Of a stretch of DNA of 64,000 nt, positions 32,804 to 51,299 are shown piece after piece (the stretch's first letter is position 1; every line of letters starts with the position of its first letter). Position numbers and translations under genes: made by a program. The DNA comes from Chitinophaga pinensis (lineage in GTDB: Bacteria; Bacteroidota; Bacteroidia; UKL13-3). The notes beneath the pieces are model-generated. The model was given only the letters and a program-made list of their open reading frames with translations, had not been told where the DNA came from and searched no databases. Location: NCBI GenBank assembly GCA_945898275.1, contig CAMDHZ010000004.1, forward strand, positions 62,001-126,000, read 5' to 3'.

Positions 32804-35107
32804 ATGAAGAAATTACTACTAATTTTCTACACCACCCTTATATCTTTCTTCGGCTATACCCAGGTCATTCAATTTCAAAGAGCTAATAAAGCTGCTGTTT
32901 CAGAAAACGGAATAGATACCCTACTTTATCCCTTTACAGGGGGCTTGAGCAATCCCCAATTTTCAAACATAGATTTAGATGGGGATAACATAAGCGATTT
33001 ATTTGTTTTTGAGCGCTCAGGCGGCAGGGTTCTTTGTTTCTTAAGGAAAAACAATGCATTTGTACATGCGCCGCAATTCGAGGCTCAGTTTCCGCCCTTA
33101 TACCAATGGGTAAAACTAAAGGATTATAACTGCGATGGTAAGCCAGATATTTTTACAGAATTAGACCCAAATGGTCCTGTTGATCCCAGAAATTATGATA
33201 ATAAAAGTGGCCTGCGTGTGTTCAAAAATATTAGTACAGAGGTAGGAAAGTTAAAATGGCAGCTAGTAAGTGATAAAGTTTTTGCCTTGCCTTCTGGAGG
33301 GTTACCAGAAGCAAAGATTAGTCTTACTGCTAGAGATTTAAGTGAATTTGAAGACATGGACAATGATGGAGATTTGGACTTAATTACCATGCCAGATAGT
33401 AAAAATATTTTTACCTACTATCAAAATCAAAGTAAAGAGTTAAACTATGGTTGTGACTCTCTGTTGTTTAAGTTTAGAGATGATTGTTGGGGTTACACGT
33501 CTTATTTGGTTAATGCCCATGGCTTTTTACTAGAAGACAATAGTCCATGTTTTCGAGATTACAAGAGGGAGTTCAAACACAATGGTTCCACTATCACCGC
33601 CTTTGATTATGATAAGGATGGTGACATGGATATCCTTTATGGAGATTTAAGTTACAACGATGTTATTCTTCTTACCAATGGCAAAACATTAAATTCTTTA
33701 GGGCATGATTCTATCATTCGTCAAGATACGGTTTTCCCCCTCACAGGTCGCAGGGCCTCGGTGCAAGTTTTTCCAGCAACCTACCTAGTAGACATAAACA
33801 ATGATGGAAAGAAAGATTTAATTGTAGCGCCTAATTCTACAGAAGGCGCTATGAATAAAGACATGGTACTCAGTTATATCAATACATCTCCAACAGCCTA
33901 TCAATTTACCTTTCAGCAAGATGATTTCTTGATTGGAGATATGCTAGATTTAGGTGGAGGCAGTAAACCACAATTGGTAGATTTAGATAACGATGATGAT
34001 TTAGACTTGGTAATAGCCACCCATGGTAACTTTGTTTATACCAGCAACAGTGACGATAGATTGCATTATTATGAAAATATTGGCAACAAAACAAAAGCCA
34101 ACTATGTCCTCCGGGACACCAATTTTCTTAAGATAAATGCAGGCCCAAATAAGATTTATGAAATTACACCAAGTTTTGGCGATTTAAACAACGACGGTAA
34201 GCCAGATTTAATCATTGGCGATATCAATGGCGTTATTCATTATTACCTAAACACCAGCACTGCGAGTAAGATTGACTTCAATAAAGTAAGCAACAATTAT
34301 TTTACTATTTATGCTGGCACCTTTGCCGCTCCACAATTAGTAGATTTGAACCAAGATGGCAAGCTAGACATTGTGCTTGGCAGAAGAAATGGCACCTTGG
34401 CTTATTTTGAGAACAAAGGTACCAAAGAAAGCGCATTATTTTGGTCTGAACCTAGCATAGATTCTATAGGAGGCATTAACATTTCAGAATTTTCTAAAGG
34501 AGTAGGGGGTTTACCAGACTATTATTTCCCCGGCTATTCGCACCCATATGTATGCGATATTGATAAAGATGGAAGGTTTGAAATATTAGTTGGTTCAATA
34601 GGTGGCGCAAACGGCAGCAAAGTTCAATTGTTCAGCAATTTTGAAGCAAGTGCTACCCGAAAATGCGACGAAATAACAAAGCTATACCTTTCATATGAAG
34701 GAGCTCAACCAAGAGACTTGTTTTTTGGAAAATTTAGTGCTCCCTTTTGCGGCGATTTAGACAACGATGGAAAGCCTGAGCTGTTAATTGGTTCAAACAA
34801 AGGTGGGCTAGAATCATTCACTCCCATTATCAAGGGAATTATTAGTGGCAATTCAACGCTAACCAAAGATGAGTTAGAATTTGTAGTATTTCCTAATCCT
34901 AGTAAAGGTAGCTTTAACCTTCGGTTCAACAAAAATCTAACATCTGCAAGCTATTCTGTTTATGCTATTACAGGTTCAAAATTATTGGAAGGGCAAATAG
35001 AAGGATATGAATCCACGATTGAAACCAATCTTTCCTCAGGATTCTACTTACTTTATATTGAAACTAGTCAAGGAGATTTCATTAGCAAAAAAATAGGAGT
35101 GGAATGA
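32804..35107 (+). CDS. Secreted FG-GAP/VCBS beta-propeller protein with T9SS sorting domain (copy 1)
   Basis: Surface or extracellular protein of 767 residues. It has a signal peptide ending near FFGYTQ (about 19). Repeated FG-GAP/VCBS calcium-binding units span most of the protein, recognisable as NIDLDGDNISDLFVF, DYNCDGKPDIF, DINNDGKKDLIV, DLNNDGKPDLIIGD and DLDNDGKPELLIG, which would build an integrin-like beta-propeller. The last 75 residues are a T9SS type A sorting domain beginning at FVVFPNPSKGSF. It is followed 93 bases later by a close paralogue in the same orientation. The function is unknown; such propellers serve adhesion or structural roles. A -7-like TAAGTTCG lies at 32776-32783. 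Confidence 0.88.
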   Translation: MKKLLLIFYTTLISFFGYTQVIQFQRANKAAVSENGIDTLLYPFTGGLSNPQFSNIDLDGDNISDLFVFERSGGRVLCFLRKNNAFVHAPQFEAQFPPLYQWVKLKDYNCDGKPDIFTELDPNGPVDPRNYDNKSGLRVFKNISTEVGKLKWQLVSDKVFALPSGGLPEAKISLTARDLSEFEDMDNDGDLDLITMPDSKNIFTYYQNQSKELNYGCDSLLFKFRDDCWGYTSYLVNAHGFLLEDNSPCFRDYKREFKHNGSTITAFDYDKDGDMDILYGDLSYNDVILLTNGKTLNSLGHDSIIRQDTVFPLTGRRASVQVFPATYLVDINNDGKKDLIVAPNSTEGAMNKDMVLSYINTSPTAYQFTFQQDDFLIGDMLDLGGGSKPQLVDLDNDDDLDLVIATHGNFVYTSNSDDRLHYYENIGNKTKANYVLRDTNFLKINAGPNKIYEITPSFGDLNNDGKPDLIIGDINGVIHYYLNTSTASKIDFNKVSNNYFTIYAGTFAAPQLVDLNQDGKLDIVLGRRNGTLAYFENKGTKESALFWSEPSIDSIGGINISEFSKGVGGLPDYYFPGYSHPYVCDIDKDGRFEILVGSIGGANGSKVQLFSNFEASATRKCDEITKLYLSYEGAQPRDLFFGKFSAPFCGDLDNDGKPELLIGSNKGGLESFTPIIKGIISGNSTLTKDELEFVVFPNPSKGSFNLRFNKNLTSASYSVYAITGSKLLEGQIEGYESTIETNLSSGFYLLYIETSQGDFISKKIGVE

Positions 35108-35200
35108 AAAAGTAAAATTCTCGTATAGAACAAATGATATTCGTCATTTGCAACAGAATAAACCAGCTTTTCGATAAATTTGAATAATATAAATAGAAAC

Positions 35201-37495
35201 ATGAAATTAAAATTACCTATACTCTCTATACTTTTAGTGGGCTTGTATTTAAACCTCCCTGCCCAAGTCATAAAATTTAACCTTGCCAACAAAGCAAAAG
35301 TTAGTGAGAATGGATTGGATACTTTATTGTATCCCTTTACTGGAGGATGGAGCAATCCTCAGTTTTCTAACATAGATTTAGATGGAGACAATGTGCAAGA
35401 TTTGTTTGTGTTTGAGCGAATTGGTAACAAAGTATTTTGCTTCTTGCGCAAAAATAACCGTTGGGTACATGCGCCACAATATGAAGTGCAATTTCCAAAG
35501 TTATATAGTTGGGCCTTGTTAAGAGATTATAACTGTGATGGCAAAATGGATATTTTTACCGAAACAGATTATAACAGTCAACCTGATCCAGGAGAATACA
35601 TTTCTTCCAATGGCTTGCGTGTGCTTAGAAATATAAGTACTACTCCTGGTGTGCTAAAGTGGACGCAAGACAAAAACCAAATTAAGGATATGGGGATAGC
35701 TGATTTGCCACCATTTAACTTAAACCTATCCATTTCCGACATCAATGCAATAGACGATATAGATAGTGATGGCGATTTGGATTTGCTCATAATGCCAAAT
35801 GGAAAGAATGTGATTACCTTTTACCAGAATATGAGTAAGGAACTTAAATATGGTTGTGATTCATTGTTGTTTAGATACCGCGACGAATGCTGGGGATATA
35901 TGTCTTATTTGGTAAATACAAACGGCTTTTTATTAAATGATAACAGTCCGTGCTTCCGCGAATACAAGCATGGTCGCAAACACAATGGCACAACTTTAAC
36001 GCTCCTAGATTATGACAATGATGGCGATAAAGATTTATTATATGGTGATGTAGGGTTTAATGAAGTAATCCTTTTAACCAATGGCAGAACCATAAATAAG
36101 TTAGGAAGAGATTCCATCATTAAGCAAGATACCGTATTTCCAATTGTAGGTAAGAGAGCCTCTATTCAGTTGTTCCCAGCCACCTATATAGTAGATATCA
36201 ATGGAGATGGCCGCAGAGATTTAATAGTTACACCAAACTCACCTGAAGGAGCCAAGAACAGGAACATGGTGCTAAGCTATCATAATACATCTGCTACTGC
36301 CTTTCAGTTTGCGTTTCAACAATCCGACTTTTTAGTGGGGCAGATGCTAGACTTAGGTGGCAGCAGCTCCCCGCAGTTGGCAGATTTAGACAAAGACGGA
36401 GATTTAGACATGGTAATTGCCACTCAAGGAGATTTTTTGTTTACCAGCAACAGTTACGATAGGTTGGTGTATTATGAAAATATTGGAACAAGTGCAAAAG
36501 CCTCTTATGTGCTAAAAGACACAAACTTTTTAAAAATCAATGATGGTCCCAATAAGATATATAGAATTTCTCCCACCTTTGGCGACTTAGACAACGATGG
36601 TAAATTAGATTTACTGCTTGGTGATCAAAACGGCATCCTTCATTATTATAAAAATACAAGCAATGGTTCAAACCTTAGTTTTAGTAAAATTAGTGACAAT
36701 TATTTCAATATCTATGCGGGAACTTTTGCAGCGCCTCAACTCATAGATTTAAATAAAGACAATGCTTTAGACATTGTAATTGGCAGAAGAAATGGTACTT
36801 TGGCTTACTATCAAAATAATGGAAGGGCAGATTCTGCAGCCTTTGGTGCAGACCCAAGCATAGATTCAATAGGTAAAATTAATATTTCTCAAGTGGCATT
36901 AAGTCCGGGCCAACCACCATTTTATTTCCCTGGATATTCAACACCCCATGTATGTGATTTAGACAAAGATGGTAACTTTGAAATTTTGGTTGGAGCACAA
37001 TCTGGACGCGTACATTTATACAGAAACTTTGACCCGAGCGCGACACGTGTATGTGAAGAGATAACAGGTATTTACAGCGACTTTCCTAGTGCTCCCTTAG
37101 CAGATTACACCTTTGGAGCACGAAGTGTACCATTTACTGGTGACATAGATGCTGATGGGGTGAGTGAATTATTGATTGGAAACACAAGAGGAGGGCTGCA
37201 ACTTTATTCGCCAACCATCAGTGGGATTATCAGTGGCCTAAAAAATACTCAAAAAGAAAGTTTTGAATCTGTCTTATATCCAAATCCGTCTAAAGGTCGG
37301 TTTATGATTAGGTTCAACACAAACCTAAAAAATGCAAACTATACAGTTTATACTTTAACTGGTGCAGAGATAACTAAAGGTGCCATCAGTGGTTATGAGC
37401 AAGAATTAGCCTTGAACCTTGAAAAAGGATTGTATATCTTGAATATCGAAACGATTACAGGCGCTAGAATGAGTCATAAGGTGGTAATAGAATAA
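35201..37495 (+). CDS. Secreted FG-GAP/VCBS beta-propeller protein with T9SS sorting domain (copy 2)
   Basis: Paralogue of the preceding gene, collinear over its whole length, with the same order of repeats (for example NIDLDGDNVQDLFVF, DYNCDGKMDIF, DINGDGRRDLIV, DLDNDGKLDLLLGD) and the same landmarks such as YGCDSLLF and NIYAGTFAAPQL. The start is the ATG at 35201, preceding a signal peptide that ends near NLPAQ; an upstream TTG at 35180 is in frame but less likely. The 764-residue protein ends in a T9SS sorting domain (SVLYPNPSKGRF onwards). The pair clearly arose by tandem duplication with substantial divergence since. The function is unknown. Confidence 0.88.
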   Translation: MKLKLPILSILLVGLYLNLPAQVIKFNLANKAKVSENGLDTLLYPFTGGWSNPQFSNIDLDGDNVQDLFVFERIGNKVFCFLRKNNRWVHAPQYEVQFPKLYSWALLRDYNCDGKMDIFTETDYNSQPDPGEYISSNGLRVLRNISTTPGVLKWTQDKNQIKDMGIADLPPFNLNLSISDINAIDDIDSDGDLDLLIMPNGKNVITFYQNMSKELKYGCDSLLFRYRDECWGYMSYLVNTNGFLLNDNSPCFREYKHGRKHNGTTLTLLDYDNDGDKDLLYGDVGFNEVILLTNGRTINKLGRDSIIKQDTVFPIVGKRASIQLFPATYIVDINGDGRRDLIVTPNSPEGAKNRNMVLSYHNTSATAFQFAFQQSDFLVGQMLDLGGSSSPQLADLDKDGDLDMVIATQGDFLFTSNSYDRLVYYENIGTSAKASYVLKDTNFLKINDGPNKIYRISPTFGDLDNDGKLDLLLGDQNGILHYYKNTSNGSNLSFSKISDNYFNIYAGTFAAPQLIDLNKDNALDIVIGRRNGTLAYYQNNGRADSAAFGADPSIDSIGKINISQVALSPGQPPFYFPGYSTPHVCDLDKDGNFEILVGAQSGRVHLYRNFDPSATRVCEEITGIYSDFPSAPLADYTFGARSVPFTGDIDADGVSELLIGNTRGGLQLYSPTISGIISGLKNTQKESFESVLYPNPSKGRFMIRFNTNLKNANYTVYTLTGAEITKGAISGYEQELALNLEKGLYILNIETITGARMSHKVVIE

Positions 37496-37546: not shown

Positions 37547-38737
37547 ATGTACGGACAATTACAACAACAACTTCAAGCTGAATTAGCAGAGATTGAATCG
37601 GCAGGATTATATAAAAGAGAGCGAATCATTACCTCACCACAAGGTGCTGAAGTTACCTTAGAAAATGGCAAGCAAGTGCTTATCTTTTGTGCGAATAATT
37701 ATTTAGGATTATCCTCACACCCAAGAGTAACATCTGCCGCAAAAAATGCAATAGATACCCATGGATTTGGTATGAGTTCAGTTCGTTTCATCTGCGGTAC
37801 TCAAGATATACATAAGCAACTTGAACAAAAAATTGCAGATTTTTTAGGAACAGAGGATACCATTTTATATGCGGCAGCCTTTGATGCCAATGGAGGTGTT
37901 TTTGAGCCCTTATTTAATGATCAAGATGCAATCATTAGTGATGCTTTAAACCATGCAAGTATCATAGATGGGGTTAGACTTTGCAAGGCAGAAAGACACC
38001 GTTACGAGCACAATAACATGCTTGATTTAGAAACTAAGTTGCAAGAAACGCAACATTGCCGCAATAGAATTATTGTAACAGATGGTGTTTTTAGCATGGA
38101 TGGAACCATTGCCCAATTGGATCATATTGTGACTTTAGCAGAGAAGTATAATGCACTTATTATGGTGGATGAATGCCATGCCAGTGGGTTTATGGGAGAT
38201 AACGGAAGAGGCACTCACGAATACAGAGGCGTTTTAGGGAAAATAGACATTATTACCGGAACCTTAGGTAAGGCATTGGGTGGCGCCATGGGCGGCTTTA
38301 CTTCTGGTAAAAAAGAAGTGATAGAAATATTGCGCCAGCGTTCAAGGCCATATTTATTTTCTAATACATTAGCTCCGTCTATTGTGGGTGCAAGCATAGA
38401 AGTATTAAATATGCTAACCGAAACTACAGCATTAAGAGATAAACTTTGGGAAAATACACAGTACTTCAGGGCGAAAATGACTGAAGCAGGTTTTGATATT
38501 AAGCCAGGTGAGCATCCAATTGTACCTGTGATGTTGTATGATGCTAAATTATCGCAAGACTTTGCGGCTAAGCTTTTAGATGAAGGCGTATATGTGGTTG
38601 GATTTTATTATCCAGTTGTGCCAAAAGGACAAGCCCGCATTAGGGTTCAAATTTCTGCTGGCCATGAGAGGGCGCATTTAGATAAGGCCATTGCTGCATT
38701 TATTAAGATTGGAAAAGAGCTAAAAGTGATTTCGTAA
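37547..38737 (+). CDS. kbl: Glycine C-acetyltransferase (2-amino-3-ketobutyrate CoA ligase)
   Basis: PLP-dependent enzyme that converts 2-amino-3-ketobutyrate and CoA to glycine and acetyl-CoA in threonine breakdown. The 396 residues match Kbl in length. It belongs to the alpha-oxoamine synthase family. Visible features include [15 protein letters not shown] near the N-terminus, [28 protein letters not shown] with the cofactor-contacting Asp, and [14 protein letters not shown] with the PLP-binding Lys near residue 241. The segment [20 protein letters not shown] is typical of Kbl rather than BioF or serine palmitoyltransferase. No threonine dehydrogenase gene is adjacent. A TATATTCG box at 37522-37529 may be its -7 element; a decamer variant lies just upstream at 37499. 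Confidence 0.93.
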
Positions 38738-38767
38738 TATTAGCTTAACCATAGGTTTTTAATTTAT
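38735..38767 (+). promoter_or_regulatory. Candidate Pho-box-like promoter of phoX
   Basis: Two TAAY tetramers lie exactly 11 bases apart (TAAT at 38735, TAAC at 38746). The second is within CTTAACCA, which fits the cyanobacterial Pho-box unit PyTTAAPyPy(T/A). Fourteen bases after the second TAAY lies TAATTTAT at 38760-38767, a weak -7-like box. The same 11/14 geometry is seen upstream of the TonB receptor and the beta-helix gene. The first unit overlaps the stop codon of kbl. Confidence 0.45.
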
Positions 38768-38835
38768 TTAAGTGAAGGAAAGGTTTGCTTAATAGGATAA
38801 ACTGACTTTTGTCAGCAAATCGTAAATTAAGCAAA

Positions 38836-40695
38836 ATGAAAAAATCATTACTTTCTGTATTGGGTCTGTCACTCGCTATGGCAGCTTCAGCACAAATTCC
38901 TTTTCCTGTAAATATTGACACCACTTGGTCGGCAACGACTGTTTGGATGCCAAAATCACCTCTTAAACTACAAGTATTATTTGTAGGTGGTGTTGATACA
39001 GTAGAAACTACTCCTACTTATGGCAATCCTGCCGGTAAAACTGTAGCAAAGCAATGGCATGATTTTATTGGTTTTACACCAGATAAAGCTGCTGGAACAC
39101 CTGATTTAGGTTGGGTTTCTGTTAACCACGAAATGATTCAAAAGAATGATATGATTGGTGATGGTGGTGGTATGACAGTTTTTAAGCTTCGCAGATTAAA
39201 AGGCGATGTGTTAGAAATTGTTCCTCAAACCTTAAATGATGGCCGTTCTGGAAAGTTCTTCAACGTAGATTTTACAAACATCACTGGCGAAACTGGTATG
39301 AATTGTTCAGGTATTTCTGCACCAGATGGTAGAATTTGGACAGCAGAAGAATGGTTAGCAGGAAGCAATGCTTCTGTTAGCTCTGGATTAAGAGATACAG
39401 CAGATTTTACAATTGGCGTTACCACACCTGCAGGTTTCCCTGGCTTTAATGGAAAAACCATTAAGAAATACCAAAACTGGAATTGGATGGTAGAAATTGA
39501 CCCTAAGCAAGCTAAAGCAATCCGCAAGCAATACAATTGGGGTAGAGCTGGTTGGGAAGGTGGAGCTATACTTCCAGATAACAAAACTGTTTTCTTAGGA
39601 GAAGATGCTACACCAGGTTTATTGGTAAAGTTTGTGGCTAATACTGCAGGTGATTTTACTTCAGGTACTACTTATATCTACAAGCATGATGCACCAACTA
39701 AATGGATTACTGTGCCAAATGATTTTGATACCATGTTAAATATCAGCAAATTTGGTTTAAGAAACGGTGCTACTATGTTTACTCGTTTAGAGTGGGTAGC
39801 TTACAACAAAGGAAATGGTAAAGTTTATGTTACAGAGACTGGTAATGATAATCCTGGTAATGCTTTTAAAGCTACAGGTGCAGTTGCTCCACATTTAATA
39901 TTAGCCTACAAGAATCGTTATAAGACAGTTAATGGTTCTGATTTCCCTAATTCTGATGCAGCAGCAGCAGATTCAGTAAGAAACGGAGCTTTTAAAGATT
40001 ATTATGGCCGTGTTTTAGAATTAGACTTAACTACTAACGAAGTTAAAACTTATATCGAAGGTGGTCCATTTAATGGTTCTGTAGCATCTAAGCCAGTAAG
40101 CCAATATCCTTCAGTTCACCTTTCAAATCCTGATGGATTAAACTTTATGCATGTTGGAAATAAAGACTACATGATTATTAGTGAAGATTTAAATGGAAGA
40201 AACTGGGGACGTACACCAGCAGAATACCAAGGTTCAAATCAAACTATTTGTGAGGCATATTTATTAGACATGTCTATTCCTAATCCTACTTTCAGCGATT
40301 TAATTCGTGTTGCAGCTTGTTCTCCAGGTGCAGAAATTACAGGTGCCATTGCCTTGGATAGTAAAACAATGTTGTTGAATGCTCAACATCCTGCAACAAC
40401 AAATACATACCCATACAATAACTCATTAACTTATGCAATTAGCGGATGGGATGGAATACCAACTGCCTTGAATGATATTAAAAAGTCTGGTACAGCTACT
40501 TTCTCAGTTTATCCAAATCCAGTAGCACGTGAGTTGAACTTAGATAAAGCAATGGATGTTGCAATCTATGATATCAACGGAAAGCGTTTGAAAGTTTATC
40601 GTGATGTTAATACAGTTGATGTTACAGACTTAGCTAGTGGAACTTATATCATCATGAATGATAAAGGTGAATCTTTAAAGTTTGTAGTAGAATAA
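38836..40695 (+). CDS. PhoX-family (DUF839) secreted phosphatase with T9SS sorting domain
   Basis: Predicted extracellular phosphomonoesterase of the calcium/iron-dependent PhoX type, 619 residues. The ATG at 38836 is chosen because a signal peptide ending at AAASAQ follows directly; the frame extends to a TTG at 38809. Family landmarks are WVSVNHEMI, NCSGISAPDGRIWTAEEW, FLGEDATPGLLVKFV, the LEWVAYN segment, VHLSNPDGLNF and IISEDLNG. The C-terminus is a short T9SS sorting domain (FSVYPNPVARELN onwards, about 550-619), which suggests export across the outer membrane rather than a Tat-exported periplasmic enzyme. It is preceded by a Pho-box-like element and followed by a strong terminator hairpin. 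Family assignment is good; activity is inferred. Confidence 0.82.
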   Translation: MKKSLLSVLGLSLAMAASAQIPFPVNIDTTWSATTVWMPKSPLKLQVLFVGGVDTVETTPTYGNPAGKTVAKQWHDFIGFTPDKAAGTPDLGWVSVNHEMIQKNDMIGDGGGMTVFKLRRLKGDVLEIVPQTLNDGRSGKFFNVDFTNITGETGMNCSGISAPDGRIWTAEEWLAGSNASVSSGLRDTADFTIGVTTPAGFPGFNGKTIKKYQNWNWMVEIDPKQAKAIRKQYNWGRAGWEGGAILPDNKTVFLGEDATPGLLVKFVANTAGDFTSGTTYIYKHDAPTKWITVPNDFDTMLNISKFGLRNGATMFTRLEWVAYNKGNGKVYVTETGNDNPGNAFKATGAVAPHLILAYKNRYKTVNGSDFPNSDAAAADSVRNGAFKDYYGRVLELDLTTNEVKTYIEGGPFNGSVASKPVSQYPSVHLSNPDGLNFMHVGNKDYMIISEDLNGRNWGRTPAEYQGSNQTICEAYLLDMSIPNPTFSDLIRVAACSPGAEITGAIALDSKTMLLNAQHPATTNTYPYNNSLTYAISGWDGIPTALNDIKKSGTATFSVYPNPVARELNLDKAMDVAIYDINGKRLKVYRDVNTVDVTDLASGTYIIMNDKGESLKFVVE

Positions 40696-40734
40696 AATAA
40701 TCTTCATTTTTAGTTAGAATTTGATCAGATTGTT

Positions 40735-40768
40735 CGGGGTTGGCTTGCCAACCCCGACTTTTTGTTTT
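40735..40768 (+). terminator. Rho-independent terminator between phoX and the peroxidase gene
   Basis: A perfect 10-base-pair stem, CGGGGTTGGC at 40735-40744 with GCCAACCCCG at 40747-40756, has a TT loop and is followed by a T-rich run (TTTTTGTTTTT). It lies 39 bases after the phoX stop. Because the peroxidase ATG is only 20 bases after the stem, readthrough may be part of the design. Confidence 0.85.
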
Positions 40769-40775
40769 TAAGCGT

Positions 40776-42704
40776 ATGAAAAAATTACTAGTAGTTATTG
40801 GTTTGTTAGGAATTGCTTTTTCTTGGACACTTTTAAGTGCTAATAAGCATAGTGATACACTTTCACAATCTTTGGCAATAGATAAGCTTGCTCATTTTAA
40901 ACAAACATTAACTCAATTTAATAACCTAGTTTTTGGTTTGAACCAAGGAAAAGTTCAAACCAAGGTTGTAAAACATGCCTATGCTGAACTTAGGCAAAGC
41001 TATAAACAAATAGAATTCTTATTGGAATATACAGACCCTGTTTTGGTTAAGGAACACCTCAACGGTGCACCTTTACCACATCTAGAGAAAACAGCTCCAA
41101 GTTTATTGATAATAGAACCTGTTGGATTGCAAGTAATAGATGAATTAATGGCTGAGCTTCCAGATTCGGCCGTGGCCGCTCAGCTATTGGTTCAAACCGA
41201 AACCCTTAAAAGAACTTTGCAAGATTACCAATGGCAAACTAAAATTTATGACAGATACATTTTTGAAGGCGCTTTTGTAGCTTTAGTAAGATTATTTAGT
41301 TTAGGACTAACAGGGTTTGATACACCAGGAACTCTCGCAAGTATTGAAGATGCAAAAGCTGTGTTGAAAAGCATAAGGTCTTTTGTAAGTTTATATCAAG
41401 CAGCGCTTACGGCCAAGAATCCTGTGCTTTATGCGCAAATTGATAAACTATTACAGGCTTCCATAAAATCTTTAAATGATACCAAAAACTTTGATGAAAT
41501 GAATCGGTTTGCGTTTTTAGTTGAAAACATAAACCCATTGATTGCAAAGTTAAATGAAGCTAAACATGCATTGCAGATTGAAACAATGGAAGAGGTTAAT
41601 GCAGGAAAAAATGCTTTGAATTTTGAAGTACAAAATTTATTCGAAGCCAACTTATTACAAAAGGATTTTTATTTGAAGCTTCCTCCAAATTATAGAAATG
41701 ATAAGGTGAAAGCTTTGGGTAAGTTATTGTTTTATGATCCAATACTTTCGGCAAACAATTTGCGCAGTTGCGCTAGTTGCCACAATCCAAAATTGGCTTT
41801 TACAGATGGCTTGTCAAAGAGCCGCTCCATTAAAAAAGGAGAATTTATACAACGCAATTCGCCAAGTTTAATTAATGCAGTTTTTGCCGAAAGATATTTC
41901 CATGATTTAAGGGCAAGTTCCTTAGAAGACCAAACAGAACATGTGATTTTTAGTAAAGAAGAGTTTAACACAACCTATTTTGATATTTTTCAGAAGTTGA
42001 ATGGAAGTGAATCCTATAAGAAATTTTTTAAGGAGGCCTTTCCTGATTTTAATAACGCAAGCATCAATAGAACCACTTTATCTTATGCGCTTGCAGCTTA
42101 TGTTGGGTCTTTAACTTCTTTTAATTCTTCCTTTGATAATGCTGTTAGAAATGCAAGTAGCACAATGCTTACTCCCAAACAAATCAAAGGCTTTAATTTA
42201 TTTATGGGGAAGGCCGCTTGTGGTACCTGTCATTTTGCACCAGTGTTTAATGGAACCACCCCTCCTTTATTTTTCGACTCCGAATCTGAAGTATTAGGTG
42301 TTCCAAGCGATGCTGCGCAAAAAGTTTGGACATTAGACGCAGATAAAGGAAGGTCAGAAGGTAGGTTCAAGGAAAAGGTAAATTTTTATGAGCATTCTTT
42401 TAAAACCCCTACGGTTAGAAATATTGGCTTGTCTGCACCTTATATGCACAATGGAAGTTTTTTAACCCTTGAAGCAGTAATGGATTTTTATAACAAAGGG
42501 GGTGGGGTTGGTCATGGATTGACGGTTCCTTATCAAACCTTAGCCAGTGACCCACTTAATTTGACTGAAGCAGAAATTGAAAGTATTATTGCCTTTATGA
42601 ATAGTTTGGAAGATACAAGTTATGATTTTGAAATGCCAAAAGTACTTCCAAAAGTAGAGTTGATACCTGAATTAGATAATCGTACTATTGGTGGTGAATA
42701 TTAG
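40776..42704 (+). CDS. Di-heme cytochrome c peroxidase / MauG-family protein
   Basis: Periplasmic or surface di-heme protein of 642 residues. The ATG at 40776 gives a hydrophobic signal (KKLLVVIGLLGIAFSWTLL). The N-terminal 300 residues are helical and unfamiliar, with a low-complexity coiled character. The peroxidase part starts near 310 (LGKLLFYDPILS). The two heme sites are CASCH near 331 and CGTCH near 483, and the segment FKTPTVRNIGLSAPYMHNGSF is diagnostic of bacterial CcpA/MauG proteins. The catalytic assignment (peroxide reduction or a MauG-like oxidation) is open. Its stop codon overlaps the start of the cytochrome/copper protein gene by about 17 bases, so the two are coupled. Two decamer copies face each other at 40935 and 40952. 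Confidence 0.9.
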   Translation: MKKLLVVIGLLGIAFSWTLLSANKHSDTLSQSLAIDKLAHFKQTLTQFNNLVFGLNQGKVQTKVVKHAYAELRQSYKQIEFLLEYTDPVLVKEHLNGAPLPHLEKTAPSLLIIEPVGLQVIDELMAELPDSAVAAQLLVQTETLKRTLQDYQWQTKIYDRYIFEGAFVALVRLFSLGLTGFDTPGTLASIEDAKAVLKSIRSFVSLYQAALTAKNPVLYAQIDKLLQASIKSLNDTKNFDEMNRFAFLVENINPLIAKLNEAKHALQIETMEEVNAGKNALNFEVQNLFEANLLQKDFYLKLPPNYRNDKVKALGKLLFYDPILSANNLRSCASCHNPKLAFTDGLSKSRSIKKGEFIQRNSPSLINAVFAERYFHDLRASSLEDQTEHVIFSKEEFNTTYFDIFQKLNGSESYKKFFKEAFPDFNNASINRTTLSYALAAYVGSLTSFNSSFDNAVRNASSTMLTPKQIKGFNLFMGKAACGTCHFAPVFNGTTPPLFFDSESEVLGVPSDAAQKVWTLDADKGRSEGRFKEKVNFYEHSFKTPTVRNIGLSAPYMHNGSFLTLEAVMDFYNKGGGVGHGLTVPYQTLASDPLNLTEAEIESIIAFMNSLEDTSYDFEMPKVLPKVELIPELDNRTIGGEY

Positions 42705-44025
42705 TCGTTGTTTATTTTTATTTTTCGGTTTGACCCAAACTTTCTTGTATGGAGTTTTTGCTCAGAAAGTTTCTTATGCAAAAGATGTGCTGCCTATTCT
42801 TTCGAATAAATGCATGAATTGCCATTATGAGAATGGATATGCCCCATTTGCCTTAACAAACTTTGAGGAAATAAAACGACATGTTAAGGAGATGGCAGTT
42901 GTTGTTGAAAATGGCAGTATGCCGCCTTGGAAAGCAAATTCTGCATTTAGAGATTTTGCTGGGAATCGTGCCTTGAACACTAAAGAAAAAGAGATTTTAA
43001 TGCAATGGTTAAAAGATGGTGCAAAAAAAGGTAAACTAGAAAAGGAGGATTGGGTTCAAACCGCCACTATTAGAGACACGCCCAACATTGTTATGAAAAT
43101 GCCAAAAGCTTATCGTTTAAAAGCTTCTTCTAAGAATACCTATATCTGTTATAAAATACCATTTGAGTTAGATTCTAATTTTGCCATCAATGGTTTAAAG
43201 TTTTTACCTGGTAATAAAGCAGCCTTGCACCATGCTACATATCAGATTTTTGAGGTTTCGGAAGGAGTAGATATTTATGCTGGTCCGGATTATTTTACCT
43301 ACAAAGAAGATTCGGTTAATAGGGTTGAGGATTTAAGAGATTTTGGCTATTTTAAGATGATTGGTAAAAATGGGGAGATGCCTAGAGAAGTTTACCATGG
43401 GGGTTGGTTGCCAGGAACTGATAAGATAAAATTTCCTGCCGGAATAGGATTTGTTTTGCCAAAGAGAGGTGTGTTGTTGATTCGGAGTTTGCATTATTCG
43501 CCTAGTGCAGTAGACGCCGAAGACCAATCAGCCCTTGGATTATATACCTCTAGCAAGCCAATTGAGAGAATGGTGGGCTTTGCAGCTTTTCAACCCAGGA
43601 ATCCAAGTCCGGGTTTTACATGGCAAATTCCAGCAGACACCATTTACAAAGCGCATTTAAATGTGAAATTTAACAATGATGTAAGTTTACTGCATATTAA
43701 CCCACATATGCATTTAATAGGAAAAACATTTAAAGCCTATGCAGTAACCATGTTGGGCGATACCATTCCATTGGTTGATATTCCTGATTGGGATTTTAAT
43801 TGGCAGGATTTTTATCGGTTCAAAACCATAGTTAAAATTCCTGCAGGTTCAATACTGCATGCCGAGGCCAGTTATGACAATACCAATGCTAATCCGAACA
43901 ATCCAAATTATCCAGCAAAGGCTATGGCATTTGAAACGGGAATGGATGAGAGCAATGAAATGATGCGACTGGTTTTGTTGTATTTGCCCTATGCGGAGGG
44001 GGATGAAAATAAACTTCTCGACTAA
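42688..44025 (+). CDS. Cytochrome c fused to a copper type II ascorbate-dependent monooxygenase-like domain
   Basis: Exported redox protein of about 445 residues. No ATG is available near the N-terminus; start options are TTG 42688 and GTG 42691 or 42694, all overlapping the end of the peroxidase gene. A hydrophobic signal (CLFLFFGLTQTFLYGVFAQ) follows. One c-type heme site, CMNCH, lies near residue 43, with MPPWKA as a possible axial Met region. The C-terminal two thirds resemble peptidylglycine-hydroxylating-type monooxygenases: ALHHATYQIF (HH pair, near 181), HINPHMHLIGKTFKAY (HxH, near 337) and a Met-containing segment, ESNEMMRLVLLYLPY, near the end. These are the expected copper ligands. 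Physical coupling to the di-heme peroxidase suggests a shared electron path. Substrate unknown. Confidence 0.82.
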   Translation: MVVNISRCLFLFFGLTQTFLYGVFAQKVSYAKDVLPILSNKCMNCHYENGYAPFALTNFEEIKRHVKEMAVVVENGSMPPWKANSAFRDFAGNRALNTKEKEILMQWLKDGAKKGKLEKEDWVQTATIRDTPNIVMKMPKAYRLKASSKNTYICYKIPFELDSNFAINGLKFLPGNKAALHHATYQIFEVSEGVDIYAGPDYFTYKEDSVNRVEDLRDFGYFKMIGKNGEMPREVYHGGWLPGTDKIKFPAGIGFVLPKRGVLLIRSLHYSPSAVDAEDQSALGLYTSSKPIERMVGFAAFQPRNPSPGFTWQIPADTIYKAHLNVKFNNDVSLLHINPHMHLIGKTFKAYAVTMLGDTIPLVDIPDWDFNWQDFYRFKTIVKIPAGSILHAEASYDNTNANPNNPNYPAKAMAFETGMDESNEMMRLVLLYLPYAEGDENKLLD

Positions 44026-44141: not shown

Positions 44142-44220
44142 GTTAATATTAAATTAACATTGTGCTAATAATACGCTAACAAGCAAGTAACCTTTAGATA
44201 ATCTTGTAGCAATACTTTCG
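44142..44220 (+). promoter_or_regulatory. Six-copy 11-base phased TAAY array and promoter of the TonB receptor
   Basis: TAAY tetramers start at 44144, 44155, 44166, 44177, 44188 and 44199, each exactly 11 bases after the last. Each lies at positions 3-6 of an 11-mer such as ATTAACATTGT or GCTAACAAGCA. TACTTTCG at 44213-44220, close to the -7 consensus TAnnTTTG, begins 14 bases after the last TAAY. This is the layout of tandem direct-repeat operators for OmpR/PhoB-type activators. The receptor ATG follows at 44237. Confidence 0.75.
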
Positions 44221-44236
44221 ACCCAATTTTAAACTT

Positions 44237-47158
44237 ATGAAAGTTAGATTGTTATTATTAGCTGTGGGCCTATTTCAAGCCTTAATAGGGATGGCAAATG
44301 CCAACACAGGAAAAATCGCTGGGCAAATTATTGATAAAAAGACTGGTGAAGAGTTAATTGGCGTAACAGTTATCATAGAGGGAACCACCTTTGGAGCTGC
44401 TACTGATTTTGAAGGGAAATTCATGATTAGCAATCTACAACCAGGTACTTATAATTTAATTGCCTCGTATGTTTCATATTCAAAAAAGACAATTCAAGGA
44501 ATAGTGGTAAAAGCTAATGAAGTTACACCACTTTCTATTGCGTTGGAGGCTGCCACAAAAGAGCTTGCAGAGGTTGTTATTACTGGTACTTTAAAGAAAG
44601 AGAACTCAAGCGCGCTTTTAATTCAACAAAAGAAAAGCGTTTCAATTTCTGATGGTATCTCGGCAGATATGATTAAGAAGACGCCAGATGCTACAACTGG
44701 AGATGTAATGAAACGTGTGAGCGGAACTTCTATTCAAGACAACAAGTTTGCAGTTATACGCGGTTTGAATGATAGGTATAATACTGCTTACATTAATGGT
44801 GCGCCACTACCAAGTACAGAGAGTGATAGAAAAGCATTTTCATTTGATATTATACCTTCTAACATGTTGGATAACATGGTAATTACTAAATCTGGTTCTG
44901 CAGATTTACCAGGAGATTTTGCTGGAGGAATGATAACCATTAATACCAAAGATATTCCTGAGAAGTCATTCTTTTCGGTAGGTTTTAGTTTAAGTTCTCA
45001 TAGCATAACTACTGGACAAACTGGTTATACTTATAATGGTGGAAAAACAGATTGGTTAGGATTGGATGACGGAACCAGAAAATATCCAGTTGGAGTTCCA
45101 GGGCGTTTAGATTATGAAAAATCGTCTGCAACCGAAAAGTATAATAACAGTTTTAAGTTTAATGACGATTGGGAAACAGTTAAAATTGATAAAATACCAG
45201 TTAACTTTTCAATCAATGCTTCTGGGGGTAACGCTTATAAACTCGGTTCAAAAAAGAACAATGAATTTGGATTTATATTATCAGCATCTTATAGCAACAG
45301 TAACCGTAATACTAATGTGGATAGGGTAACTGTAAATAAACCTTTTACTTCTACAAATGTAAATGAATTAGTATCTAGCAATTTGGATGATGTTTATAAA
45401 AATGAAATTCTGGCTGGATTCATGGCAAATTTTGGATTGAAACTAGGTACCAATAACAAGATTTCATTTAAGAATACATATACCATTAATACAGAAGATC
45501 AAACCATTTTAAGAGGTGGTGTTGATACCTATCAAGATGTATCACTTCCATTTTTAAAGAACACCTATTACTTTTACCAACAAAATCAACTATTAACTTC
45601 ACAGTTAATTGGAGATCATTATATTAAAGCAGCTAAGCTAAAAGTAAATTGGGTATTAAATAATAACATCATTAGCAGACAAATTCCTGATTTTAGAAGG
45701 TTTAAATCTTCTGCAGCCTTAAAGGATCCTGGAAATTCTGAGGAGCGCTTTAATTACAGAGTTTCAATGTCAAATCAGATTGATATTTCACAAACTGGTC
45801 GTTTCTACTCTGATTTGGATGAAAGTATAAGAAGTGCAAACTTAAATTTTCAGTTGCCTGCTAGTTTTCTTTCAGGTAAAAGTGTTAAAACTGATTTGAA
45901 ATTTGGAGGGATGTACCAAAACAGACAACGTGATTTCCAAGCACGTGCGATGGGTTATAAAACAAACACAAATGTTTTACCTCAAAGTAATCCATTTTAC
46001 GAATTACCAATTGATGAAATTTTCACTTACGAAAAGTTTAAGCAAGATACATTTTTCATTGATGAGAGAATCAATCCTCAAGATGTTTATCAAGCATATT
46101 CAAATTTGGCTGCTGCTTATTTGATGTTTGACCAAAGAATATTAAGTCGCATAAGAATGAGCTATGGCGTAAGGTTCGAGACTTACCGCCAAGTGTTAGA
46201 AAGTAAAAATCAAACAAACAATGATATTAAGGTTGATACTACTTTCACAGATTTCTTACCATCTGTTAACTTTACTTATGAACTAACAGAGAAAACAAAC
46301 ATTAGGGCTTCTTATTTCAGGTCATTGGCAAGACCAGAATTTAGAGAATTGGCACCTTTCCAGTTTTATGATTTTAATTACAATACAGTAGTTGCTGGTA
46401 ATACCGCATTGGCGCGCACCCGAATTAACAACTACGATTTAAGATTTGAGTATTATCCAGGAGAGGGTCAATTGATGTCTGCTTCCTTATTTTATAAAAC
46501 ATTTGAAAATGCAATTGAACAAGTATATGAAAATGTAGGTTCAACGCAATTAGGTTATACTAGTAACTCTACCGCAACAAATTATGGTGTAGAATTAGAG
46601 TTAAGAAAGAATTTCGACTTTTTAGATGCAGCATTTAAAACAGAATTCTTGCGTAAGTTTAGCTTTACAATTAATTACGCTTACATCCTATCAGAAGTTA
46701 AATTAGATACATCAATTTCTTCTGCTCAAATTGGAACACGTCCATTGCAAGGTCAATCACCCTTTATCCTCAATACAAGTTTTCAATTTTTTGATCCAAA
46801 ATCTAATTTCTCTGCCGCCATTTTCTTAAACAGAGTTGGAAGAAGAATTGCTTTTGTTCGCGAAAAGAATGGCACTGCCCCTGATTTATTTGAGAATCCA
46901 AGAACTGTTATAGATATTTCATTGTCGAAGAAAATATACAAAGGCTTAGATGCAAAATTTGTGATTGGTGATTTATTGCACCAAGATTTGGTATTTTACC
47001 AAGACAACAATGACAACAAGAAGTACGATAAATACGATTACAAAACCCTTGTTGATCCAACAGTAATGGGAGCTGCTGATTCAGGGAAAAGAGATAATAC
47101 CATTTTTAAATACAAAATGGGGTTGACCTTAAGTTTCGGCTTAAGTTACAAATTCTAA
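44237..47158 (+). CDS. TonB-dependent outer-membrane receptor with carboxypeptidase-regulatory domain
   Basis: Outer-membrane active transporter of 973 residues. The signal peptide ends near GMANAN (about 23). A carboxypeptidase-D-regulatory-like domain (about 27-110; GKIAGQIIDKKTGEELIGVTV) is followed by a plug domain with VISGT-like VVITGTL, VMKRVSGTSIQDNKFAVIRG and the DLPGDFAGGMITINTK end (about 115-240). The 22-strand barrel extends to a terminal aromatic residue (GLTLSFGLSYKF). There is no SusD-like partner, so it is not a typical glycan-utilisation pair. Instead it is followed by a secreted beta-helix protein with the same type of upstream operator. The ligand is unknown; phosphate-containing compounds are suggested by the operator type and the nearby PhoX gene. 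A terminator follows. Confidence 0.9.
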   Translation: MKVRLLLLAVGLFQALIGMANANTGKIAGQIIDKKTGEELIGVTVIIEGTTFGAATDFEGKFMISNLQPGTYNLIASYVSYSKKTIQGIVVKANEVTPLSIALEAATKELAEVVITGTLKKENSSALLIQQKKSVSISDGISADMIKKTPDATTGDVMKRVSGTSIQDNKFAVIRGLNDRYNTAYINGAPLPSTESDRKAFSFDIIPSNMLDNMVITKSGSADLPGDFAGGMITINTKDIPEKSFFSVGFSLSSHSITTGQTGYTYNGGKTDWLGLDDGTRKYPVGVPGRLDYEKSSATEKYNNSFKFNDDWETVKIDKIPVNFSINASGGNAYKLGSKKNNEFGFILSASYSNSNRNTNVDRVTVNKPFTSTNVNELVSSNLDDVYKNEILAGFMANFGLKLGTNNKISFKNTYTINTEDQTILRGGVDTYQDVSLPFLKNTYYFYQQNQLLTSQLIGDHYIKAAKLKVNWVLNNNIISRQIPDFRRFKSSAALKDPGNSEERFNYRVSMSNQIDISQTGRFYSDLDESIRSANLNFQLPASFLSGKSVKTDLKFGGMYQNRQRDFQARAMGYKTNTNVLPQSNPFYELPIDEIFTYEKFKQDTFFIDERINPQDVYQAYSNLAAAYLMFDQRILSRIRMSYGVRFETYRQVLESKNQTNNDIKVDTTFTDFLPSVNFTYELTEKTNIRASYFRSLARPEFRELAPFQFYDFNYNTVVAGNTALARTRINNYDLRFEYYPGEGQLMSASLFYKTFENAIEQVYENVGSTQLGYTSNSTATNYGVELELRKNFDFLDAAFKTEFLRKFSFTINYAYILSEVKLDTSISSAQIGTRPLQGQSPFILNTSFQFFDPKSNFSAAIFLNRVGRRIAFVREKNGTAPDLFENPRTVIDISLSKKIYKGLDAKFVIGDLLHQDLVFYQDNNDNKKYDKYDYKTLVDPTVMGAADSGKRDNTIFKYKMGLTLSFGLSYKF

Positions 47159-47241: not shown

Positions 47242-47298
47242 GTTAACCTTAAGGTAATAATAACTTAACGCATACCTAATAACATTAATTTAATATTG
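47242..47298 (+). promoter_or_regulatory. Four-copy 11-base phased TAAY array and promoter of the beta-helix gene
   Basis: TAAC at 47244, TAAT at 47255, TAAC at 47266 and TAAT at 47277 are spaced exactly 11 bases apart, within units GTTAACCTTAA, GGTAATAATAA, CTTAACGCATA and CCTAATAACAT. TAATATTG at 47291-47298, one mismatch from the -7 consensus, begins 14 bases after the last TAAY, the same distance as at the receptor promoter. The ATG follows at 47325. Confidence 0.72.
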
Positions 47299-47324: not shown

Positions 47325-50300
47325 ATGAAAAAGATTGCCTTAATCATTCTAGTTAGTTTTATTTCCGTTTTAACCTTTGCCCAAAAAGCAAGGACAATCA
47401 TTGGAAATATTACAAGCAACACCACTTTTTACAGCGATACTGTCTACACCTTAGATGGATTTGTTTATGTAAAAAACAATGCTATCCTCACCATCCAGCC
47501 TGGTACCATTATCAAAGGTAAGGCAGGAAATAGGTCTACACTAATTGTTACCCGTAATGGTAGAATTGAAGCCAACGGAACAGCTAACAGACCAATTGTA
47601 TTCACATCCGAAAAAGCAACTGGTTTACGTTCAAAAGGAGACTGGGGAGGTATAGTTATTTTAGGTAAGGCAAAAATCAATCGCCCTACAGATTGTACTA
47701 CTTGTCCTGGATCAACTGTTGCAGCTGCTGAAGCTGGCATTCAAAATGCAGTTGAAGGTGATGTAGACAATGCAGCAGGTGATGCTTTATATGGTGGAAA
47801 TGATGATACCCACAATGCTGGTACTTTGCGTTATGTGCGTATAGAATACGCAGGAACTGTTATCACTCCAGGAAACGAAATCAATGGATTAACCATGGGT
47901 GGTATTGGTAAGCAAACAACAATTGAATATGTTCAAGTTTCATTTGCTGATGATGATGCATTTGAGTGGTTTGGTGGAACAGCAGATGCTAAGTATTTAG
48001 TTTCTCACCGCAATGTGGATGATGATTTAGATACAGATTTTGGTTTTACTGGTAGAATCCAATTTGCATTGGTTCAACGCGATTCAAACTTATTTGATGT
48101 TGGTACTGGTCCAACTACTAATGGTTTTGAATCTGATAATGATGGTTCAGGAACAGAAGCTCAACCTTATACTAATCCAACCTTCTCAAATGTAACGGTT
48201 GTAGGTCCTTTAGCAAATGGCAGAATATTAGGTTATTCAAACTCATTTAACAATGGTGCTCGTATCCGTCGTAACTCTTCAACCTCAATTTATAACTCAA
48301 TTTTTATGGGTTGGAATGAAGGTGTTTTTATTGATGGAACACGCACAGGACAAAAGCTTCAAAACGATTCAATGAGCTTTAAGAACAATATCCTTGCAGG
48401 TAACCTTCGTGCAGTAAATAATTCTTCTGCTTCTGGTGCGCGTACAAAAGTTTTAAGTCTAAACGATTCAATCCTTAGTGCTGATGGAATTTTAAATAAT
48501 CCTTTCAACTATACTAGTCCTAATTTTGCTCCTGCAGCTGGTTCTCCAGCTTTAACAGGTGCATCATTTACAGATGCACGTGTTGCAGATGGTTTCTTTA
48601 CTCAAACTGCATATCGTGGTGCAATTGATCCAAGCAACAATTGGACAAATTGCTGGTGTAACTTTAACCCTCAAATTACTAATTATGATAATGGTCCTTT
48701 GAACTTGTTACCATTAACTTATGATGCTGGTAAAGATTCAACAATCTGTTCAGGCAGATCTTTGGTAATTGGTCAAAATTTAACTGGACCTTACAAAGCA
48801 ACTTGGTCGCCTGCTGCTGGCTTAAGTTCAACAACTGCCGCTCGTCCAACTGCAAATCCAACTACAACTACTAAATATTTTGTAACTGTTAGAGATTCAA
48901 TCACAGGTTGTTCATTAGTAGATAGCATCACTGTAACTGTAAATACTACGCCAACTGCTAACTTTACAAGTGCACCTGGCACTGGTGCAGGTGTTGTTAA
49001 TTTTACAAATACTTCAACTAATGCAACAACTTATAGCTGGAATTTTGGAGATGGTAACACTTCAACAACTGCAAGCCCAAGCAATACATATGCTGCAAAC
49101 GGAACTTACACAGTTGCATTAACTGCTATTTCTGGAACTTGCTCAAATGCTACAAGCAGACAAATCAATGTTTCTGGAATTGCTTCGCCTACTAGAGCTT
49201 TCACAGGAGACATTACAGGTAACACTACTTTCTTTGCCGACACTATTTATATCATCAACGGTTATACTTTTGTAAAGAATAATGCAGTATTAACCATTCA
49301 GCCAGGTACTATCATTAAAGGTGGTGCTAATAAAGCAACTTTAGTTATCACACGTAATGGTAGAATTGAAGCAAATGGAACAAAAAATCAACCAATTGTT
49401 TTCACTTCTGCTAAGCCAGCTGGCCAACGTAACAAAGGAGATTGGGGTGGTTTAGTTGTTCTTGGTAAAGCAAAATTAAATAGGCCAACAGATTGTTCTA
49501 CTTGTCCAGGTGCTGCGGTTGCAGCTACAGAAGCAGGTATACAAAATGCAGTTGAAGGTGATATTGACAATGCTAATGGTGATGCACTTTATGGTGGTAA
49601 TGATGATACTCATAATGCGGGTACATTACGTTTTGTGCGTATCGAGTATGCTGGTACAGTTATCACTCCTGGTAACGAAATCAATGGTTTAACCATGGGT
49701 GGACTTGGAAAGCAAACTAAAATTGAGTATGTTCAAGTTTCATTTGCGGATGATGACGGTTTTGAGTGGTTTGGTGGCAACGTTGATGCAAAATACTTAG
49801 TTTCTCACCGCAACGTAGATGATGATTTGGATGTTGATTTTGGGTTTTCTGGTAAAATTCAATTTGCCTTGGTTCAACGTGATTCTAATTTGTTTGATGT
49901 TGGTTCTGGTCCTACAACCAATGGCTTTGAATCTGATAACGATGGTTCAGGTACAGAATCTAAGCCTTATACTGACCCAACTTTCTCTAACATAACAGTT
50001 GTTGGTCCTTTAGCTAATAACAGAGTTTTAGGATACGGTAACTCATTTAACAATGGTGCGCGCATTCGTCGTAATTCTTCAACTTCTATTTACAACTCAA
50101 TCTTTATGGGTTGGAATGAAGGTGTGTTTGTAGACGGAACTCGTACAGGTCAAAAACACCAAAACGACTCAATGAGCTTTAAGAACAATATCCTTGCAGG
50201 TAACTTACGCGCAGTAAACAATTCTTCAGCTTCAGGCGCTCGTGCTAAAGTTTTAAGCCAAAACGATTCTATCTTAAGTGCAGATGGTATTTTAGGTAAT

Positions 50301-51299
50301 CCTTTCAACTATACTAATCCTAGTTTTGCTCCTGTTGCAGGTTCTCCTGCTTTAACGGGTGCTGCATTTACTGATGCACGCGTTGCAGATGGTTTCTTTA
50401 CACAAACTCCTTTCCGTGGTGCTATGGGTAATAACCCTGATAGTAACTGGACTAACTGCTGGTGTAATTTTGACCCTCAAAACACTAACTATAATGCTTC
50501 TCCAATCAACAACCCAGGTGCTACAGCTAATTTCACTGCTCCTGCTACTTCAAGTACTTTGAAAGTTGATTTCGCAAATAGTTCTTCTAATGCAACTTCA
50601 TACTTCTGGGATTTTGGTGTTGCTTCTAGCACAACTGATACCTCAAGTGCAATGAGCCCTAGCTTCACTTATCCTGCAAATGGAAAATACACAGTTACAT
50701 TAACTGCTAGAAGCAAGTGTGGTAATTCAGTTAAGACTTTTGAAATTACCATCAATGATGTTAGCATTCTACCTGTTGTTGACTTTACCTTTGTTCAAAA
50801 TACAAGCAATGGTTCTCGTGAACTTACCTTTACCAATGCAACAGTAGAAAAAGGTTTAACCATTAACTACTCTTGGAAATTTGGAGATGGCAACACAGCC
50901 GCTACTAAAAATGCAACGCATACTTATACTGCAAATGGCGATTTTAAAGTTACCCTTATTGCAACACATATTTATGGTGTTGATTCAGTAAGCAAAACCA
51001 TTAATGTGGTAGCTACTTCGGTTGCTGAGCAAGCAGCATTGTTTAATAGCTTTGTGGTATATCCAAATCCAACTAGAGATGTTGCTTTTGTAGATTTCGG
51101 TTTGAACCAAACTGAAAGCGTTAGTGTATCTGTAATGGATTTAACCGGCAAGGAAATTATCAATATCCCTGCTTCTAAATTCAATACCGGCAAACATACC
51201 ATGGAAATCGGTACAGCTATCCTTAGCGAAGGTATGTACATGGTTAGAATTAGTGGTGCTAATGCAGCATTAACTTCTAGGTTAGTTATTATCAAATAA
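47325..51299 (+). CDS. Secreted protein with duplicated beta-helix modules, PKD domains and T9SS sorting domain
   Basis: Predicted surface or extracellular protein of 1324 residues. The signal peptide ends at LTFAQ (about 19). Two copies of a module of about 440 residues follow (about 22-465 and 623-1050). Each opens with short beta-strands of the type VYVKNNAILTIQPGTIIKG and contains GDWGG, NAVEGD, YGGNDDTHNAGTLRYVRIEY and DDDLDTDFGF, an arrangement that looks like a parallel beta-helix with acidic calcium-type sites. PKD domains occur near 545-615 (WNFGDG), 1066-1145 and 1152-1230 (WKFGDG). The T9SS type A sorting domain starts at FVVYPNPTRDVAF. It follows the TonB receptor and shares its operator type, so it may capture or present the receptor's ligand; this is inference. 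No catalytic site was recognised. Confidence 0.85.
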   Translation: MKKIALIILVSFISVLTFAQKARTIIGNITSNTTFYSDTVYTLDGFVYVKNNAILTIQPGTIIKGKAGNRSTLIVTRNGRIEANGTANRPIVFTSEKATGLRSKGDWGGIVILGKAKINRPTDCTTCPGSTVAAAEAGIQNAVEGDVDNAAGDALYGGNDDTHNAGTLRYVRIEYAGTVITPGNEINGLTMGGIGKQTTIEYVQVSFADDDAFEWFGGTADAKYLVSHRNVDDDLDTDFGFTGRIQFALVQRDSNLFDVGTGPTTNGFESDNDGSGTEAQPYTNPTFSNVTVVGPLANGRILGYSNSFNNGARIRRNSSTSIYNSIFMGWNEGVFIDGTRTGQKLQNDSMSFKNNILAGNLRAVNNSSASGARTKVLSLNDSILSADGILNNPFNYTSPNFAPAAGSPALTGASFTDARVADGFFTQTAYRGAIDPSNNWTNCWCNFNPQITNYDNGPLNLLPLTYDAGKDSTICSGRSLVIGQNLTGPYKATWSPAAGLSSTTAARPTANPTTTTKYFVTVRDSITGCSLVDSITVTVNTTPTANFTSAPGTGAGVVNFTNTSTNATTYSWNFGDGNTSTTASPSNTYAANGTYTVALTAISGTCSNATSRQINVSGIASPTRAFTGDITGNTTFFADTIYIINGYTFVKNNAVLTIQPGTIIKGGANKATLVITRNGRIEANGTKNQPIVFTSAKPAGQRNKGDWGGLVVLGKAKLNRPTDCSTCPGAAVAATEAGIQNAVEGDIDNANGDALYGGNDDTHNAGTLRFVRIEYAGTVITPGNEINGLTMGGLGKQTKIEYVQVSFADDDGFEWFGGNVDAKYLVSHRNVDDDLDVDFGFSGKIQFALVQRDSNLFDVGSGPTTNGFESDNDGSGTESKPYTDPTFSNITVVGPLANNRVLGYGNSFNNGARIRRNSSTSIYNSIFMGWNEGVFVDGTRTGQKHQNDSMSFKNNILAGNLRAVNNSSASGARAKVLSQNDSILSADGILGNPFNYTNPSFAPVAGSPALTGAAFTDARVADGFFTQTPFRGAMGNNPDSNWTNCWCNFDPQNTNYNASPINNPGATANFTAPATSSTLKVDFANSSSNATSYFWDFGVASSTTDTSSAMSPSFTYPANGKYTVTLTARSKCGNSVKTFEITINDVSILPVVDFTFVQNTSNGSRELTFTNATVEKGLTINYSWKFGDGNTAATKNATHTYTANGDFKVTLIATHIYGVDSVSKTINVVATSVAEQAALFNSFVVYPNPTRDVAFVDFGLNQTESVSVSVMDLTGKEIINIPASKFNTGKHTMEIGTAILSEGMYMVRISGANAALTSRLVIIK

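Follow-up and report, generated by a model that had tools for sequence, protein, structure and literature searches.

Introduction

PhoB-type regulators bind head-to-tail to Pho boxes, which are 11-bp direct repeats (PMC4415409). The cyanobacterial Pho box consists of 8-bp CTTAACCT repeats, separated by 3-bp linkers and present in three or more copies (PMC1906773). DAP-seq of PhoP from Riemerella anatipestifer enriched the sequence TTTAACA, a motif reported as ArcA-like (PMC9603813). A study of Flavobacterium johnsoniae places the TonB-dependent receptor and the pectin-lyase-fold protein FII of the phoBR cluster (Fjoh_0545/0546) among the products most induced by phosphate depletion, and likewise a PhoX/MauG pair (PMC8115612). 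In Caulobacter, the extracellular protein ElpS (partner CC_0171) is induced by phosphate depletion, whereas the receptor of the pair is reported as constitutive (PMC2996285). Co-regulation of receptor and partner therefore need not hold outside Bacteroidota.

In soils and fresh water, members of the Bacteroidota play a major part in the recycling of phosphorus, and depletion of phosphate is known from data on Flavobacterium to induce many outer-membrane genes. The literature that we searched contained no description of a Bacteroidetes Pho box with TonB, nor of the DNA element behind phosphate-induced outer-membrane genes. Here, we report on two promoters with phased repeats in a stretch of 64,000 nucleotides, designated the window, and on their conservation in relatives.

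Results

Two promoters share an 11-bp array and its distance to the -7 box

The two promoters and the genes that they precede are as follows.

44144–44202, forward strand: array of six TAAY units at an 11-bp period, upstream from the receptor gene
44213–44220, forward strand: -7 box TACTTTCG of the receptor promoter
44237–47158, forward strand: TonB-dependent receptor with a CarboxypepD_reg-like domain, 973 aa
47193–47219, forward strand: terminator-like hairpin in the gap between the receptor and beta-helix genes
47244–47280, forward strand: array of four TAAY units at an 11-bp period, a Pho-box-like operator upstream from the beta-helix gene (from the letters, genome pattern search, alignment and shuffles)
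47291–47298, forward strand: -7 box TAATATTG (consensus TAnnTTTG) of the beta-helix promoter, in a phase common to most orthologues
47325–51299, forward strand: secreted protein of 1324 aa with two near-identical predicted beta-helix domains, PKD domains and a T9SS sorting tail

The first-pass annotation had described four TAAY units exactly 11 bases apart upstream from the beta-helix gene, the last of them 14 bases before a -7-like box, and both spacings were verified in the letters. The units are TAAC at 47244, TAAT at 47255, TAAC at 47266, and TAAT at 47277 on the forward strand; TAATATTG starts at 47291, 14 bp past the last unit, and the ATG of the gene is at 47325. The receptor promoter contains six TAAY units from 44144 to 44199 with the same 11-bp period, and TACTTTCG at 44213 again lies 14 bp past the last one. 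A pattern search of the whole genome (3.52 Mb) detected exact four-unit arrays at these two promoters only, and no four-unit TAAY array with another period from 5 to 24 was present in the window. The array at 47244–47280 has the tandem 11-bp repeats and the fixed distance to the sigma element that characterize a Pho box, and its unit is like that of a known Pho box. The terminator previously placed between the two genes was recovered as a terminator-like hairpin, and in several relatives a hairpin can be seen at this intergenic position too, though with another sequence.

The label beta-helix is tentative here, as the predicted model (AlphaFold pLDDT of 66) gave a weak structure match, the beta-helix proteins matched by Foldseek having TM <0.4. 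The tandem copies of the domain (residues about 1–450 and 614–1062) are approximately 81% identical. A relative of the protein is present in 52 of the 58 genomes of the family, and relatives in Aequorivita, which belongs to the family of Flavobacterium, match at approximately 35%. The receptor adjoins the beta-helix relative in the loci examined. The genome also contains a diverged second receptor/beta-helix pair on another contig (G000:C16; L201: 1207–5523), the beta-helix gene of which is preceded by a degenerate array.

In the window, the pair adjoins PhoX-like and MauG-like genes.

38735–38760, forward strand: weak candidate for a degenerate array, GTAATATTAGC TTAACCATAGG TTTTTAAT, upstream from the PhoX-like gene and 15th among the 1,352 regions ranked
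38836–40695, forward strand: distant PhoX-like protein with a T9SS tail (ATG start as used in the upstream scan)
40740–42704, forward strand: MauG-like di-haem peroxidase

A cassette comprising the PhoX-like gene, the MauG-like gene, and a gene for a 445-aa protein (38809–44025) separates the glycine C-acetyltransferase gene from the receptor gene. The same cassette was found in two relatives (L068 and L070), whereas most others lack it and have the receptor gene directly next. Two tandem FG-GAP T9SS proteins, approximately 61–63% alike, are encoded upstream from the cluster (32804–37495).

The arrays and their phase are conserved in relatives

In approximately 20 relatives, the two arrays have been kept in phase with the -7 box while the sequence has otherwise diverged: in the upstream regions of orthologues, the phased units are constant and the intervening bases vary. 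In dereplicated upstream regions, pairs of TAAY at a lag of 11 numbered 62 for the receptor (0.9 expected), 33 for the beta-helix gene (1.2 expected), and 37 for phoB (1.7 expected). Phase was counted after alignment of the promoters on the -7 box alone, the shared phase being 14 (+11n) bp before the box. One phase contained 74 of the 88 TAAY of the receptor promoters and 46 of the 73 TAAY of the beta-helix promoters, and the -7 box was in the phase of the array in 18 of 20 receptor promoters.

The alignment with orthologues that the first-pass annotation had proposed bore out both arrays and their phase but not the fourth beta-helix unit beyond sister species. This correction comes from the alignment on the -7 box, in which the conserved units are located 47, 36, and 25 bp before the box (15/19, 15/19, and 12/19 orthologous promoters, respectively). 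A perfect TAAY at -14 is confined to this genome and two sister species, the other promoters mostly having xAAY there; this unit is lineage-specific. The earlier proposal of one common regulator and one regulon with separate starts gains support, at the level of sequence, from the finding that both arrays keep their phase with the -7 boxes across the family.

Distant loci in Bacteroidota and Rhodothermota were retrieved by the beta-helix protein alone. Among the 420 upstream regions of these loci, 57 belong to receptor or beta-helix genes, and all of the best 20 array scores were found among these 57. The same scan detected no arrays in Flammeovirga, nor in several further loci related to the pair.

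Arrays precede a phoB-like gene and a phosphate permease gene

The first-pass annotation had named no regulator and had left the nutrient open. The array at a phoB-like gene (below, phoB), the array at a PHO4 permease gene, and Pho genes beside homologous pairs point to PhoB and phosphate. Of the four OmpR-type DNA-binding regulators of the genome, one (G000:C5:146286–146963) adjoins a PhoR/PnpS-like kinase; the best matches of the two proteins are PhoB and PnpS/PhoR, below curated cut-offs, the regulator scoring 222 of the 296 bits of the PhoB equivalog cut-off. Its DNA-binding domain aligns with that of E. coli PhoB (1gxp, 3t72), among others. The best matches of the other three regulators are CopR-, RpaB-, or RprY-type models. 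The promoter of the phoB-like gene contains the array ATAATGATTTA TTAACAGTATG TTTACATTGAC ATAAG, and nearly all phoB promoters of the family show the array; none was detected upstream from the other three OmpR-type regulator genes of the genome.

A unit matrix, with the consensus (C)TTAACnTT, was trained on other genomes, this genome and its nearest sister being left out. It was used to rank 1,352 upstream regions, covering 1.69 of the 3.52 Mb of the genome (48%). The receptor gene ranked first, the beta-helix gene second, and phoB third. Exact three-unit arrays also occur at other places in the genome, and one of them is located 35 bp before the ATG of a PHO4 phosphate permease gene, with a -7 box one base out of phase. 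The array is present, as expected for a Pho box, both at phoB and at a gene for phosphate transport. No clear TAnnTTTG box was visible in the genome's own phoB promoter. In the phoB promoters of the family (L156–L182), a conserved GAATnTTAC-like stretch located approximately 20–30 bp before the ATG replaces the TAnnTTTG box. No PhoU gene was found in the genome.

Several candidates were rejected. For PBP_like_2, the one good match (329 aa) lies in a cluster that is not pst-like and has no array, and the second match resembles a LysR-type regulator by its sequence. The lower-scoring regions C1:229054, C2:160391, C9:95202, and C16:6994 were not counted in the regulon: some of them extend over the start codon, and for none was a phosphate link seen.

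Similar arrangements were found in other genomes. In three genomes of one genus (g4), phoB and the beta-helix homologue are divergent neighbors, each facing its own array of three or four units. In Aequorivita, genes for a phosphate-selective porin (porin O/P) and a PHO4 permease follow the pair, and in Salinivenus a PhoU gene is located near it. A strict five-unit search of 295 genomes of the class yielded, in another family, an array with a TonB receptor on one side and a PhoU_div-PHO4 operon on the other; this search gave matches in four genomes, two of which hold simple repeats.

Recognition of tandem repeats is common to OmpR-family regulators. Another member of this family (an RprY-, RpaB-, or CopR-like protein; repeats of the TTAA type are also used by ArcA) might bind the arrays in response to a different signal, a reading that would accommodate the below-cut-off match to PhoB and the ArcA-like description of the Riemerella PhoP motif (PMC9603813). 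We consider this unlikely. An array precedes phoB and none precedes the genes of the other three regulators, and in several lineages arrays are found next to genes for PhoB, PHO4, porin O/P, and PhoU.

Base preferences and chance phasing

The units are AT-rich, and helically phased AT-rich steps fit curved DNA. The TAA steps could accordingly be structural (curvature or a UP-like element) and make the promoter stronger at the basal level with no dedicated regulator. This is very improbable, as the base preferences are specific, with C in 81% of the units at the fourth (Y) position and TT two bases further on. In addition, arrays persist in GC-rich genomes (L110 and L111) as TAAC or TAAT only, and few genes carry them.

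Chance phasing had to be checked because the beta-helix promoter is rich in TAAY (13 in 105 bp of AT-rich sequence). Both stretches were submitted to 5,000 dinucleotide shuffles, the statistics of which are descriptive since the relatives share ancestry: four units with a period of 11 were reached in 1 shuffle of the beta-helix stretch, four in-phase units at any period from 6 to 21 in 22 shuffles of this stretch, and the six receptor units in none of the shuffles of the receptor stretch. The 22 shuffles leave some room for fortuitous phasing in an AT-rich intergenic region, but this explanation is refuted by conservation of the same phase in approximately 20 relatives, next to a second, six-unit array.

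Discussion

From the sequences, we consider it highly probable that both arrays are Pho-box-type operators of PhoB and that the receptor and beta-helix genes are regulated by phosphate starvation. Both promoters are read as PhoB-activated because of the likeness of the arrays to Pho boxes, the induced pairs of F. johnsoniae, and the PhoX-like and MauG-like neighbors in the window. Since the repeats resemble docking sites of PhoB, the two genes are probably switched on together at low phosphate. Counted against PhoB were the score below the cut-off, the absence of a PhoU gene, the weak array of the PhoX-like gene, the relatives devoid of arrays, the lack of a clear -7 box at the genome's own phoB, the PHO4 box off by one base, and the constitutive receptor of Caulobacter.

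In the proposed mechanism, PhoR would phosphorylate PhoB when phosphate is short. The PhoB-like regulator would bind the array head-to-tail on one face of the DNA and recruit RNA polymerase, carrying the primary sigma factor of Bacteroidota, to the -7 box located in fixed phase with the array. With the placement of Bacteroidota promoter boxes taken from PMC9723704, no TTTG element was visible by eye at the expected -33 position in the receptor and beta-helix promoters; PhoB therefore most likely stands in for the -33 element. Phosphorylated PhoB would activate phoB itself and the genes for the PHO4 permease, the receptor, and the secreted beta-helix protein, transcription of the last starting separately, past the terminator. 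Both the receptor and its secreted partner would probably function in the acquisition of phosphorus compounds at the outer membrane.

Bacteroidota and Rhodothermota may possess a distinct class of PhoB promoters, with a phylum-wide regulon around the TonB receptor and its beta-helix partner and with some lineages devoid of PhoU; we regard the chances for and against this extension as even. The class would be defined by four to eight (C)TTAACnTT units, a TAnnTTTG -7 box in fixed phase, and replacement of the -33 element by the array. A defined phased operator would make the phosphate regulon predictable from sequence in uncultured members, and the array would tie a widespread, uncharacterised pair of receptor and secreted protein to phosphate. 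The spacing between array and -7 box also offers a clear promoter geometry for work with the Bacteroidota sigma factor.

Comparison with described systems starts with the gene pair. A TonB-dependent receptor adjoins a secreted or extracellular protein in the FII and ElpS systems, and such a receptor is also adjacent in the window and its relatives. The locus differs from FII and ElpS in that the protein next to the receptor is large, duplicated, and of the T9SS type instead of being a lipoprotein, and is encoded away from phoBR. Riemerella PhoP is a Bacteroidota regulator of the same family with the core TTTAACA; the likeness is by regulator family and motif (PMC9603813), whereas the phased array and the -7 geometry are features of the promoters described here. 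The boxes of E. coli PhoB and B. subtilis PhoP (PMC4415409) share the 11-nt head-to-tail direct repeats, the position just upstream from the sigma element, and regulation of phoB itself. In contrast to the E. coli box CTGTCAT, the unit sequence is different, the box is a -7 and not a -10 element, and the genome has no PhoU gene. In the cyanobacterial SphR Pho box, tandem direct repeats likewise follow one another with an 11-bp period, number at least three, and have nearly the unit (C)TTAACnTT. Relative to it, the arrays have four to eight units, are in fixed phase with the Bacteroidota -7 box TAnnTTTG, and precede outer-membrane genes. The arrays are a known kind of operator in a Bacteroidota form.
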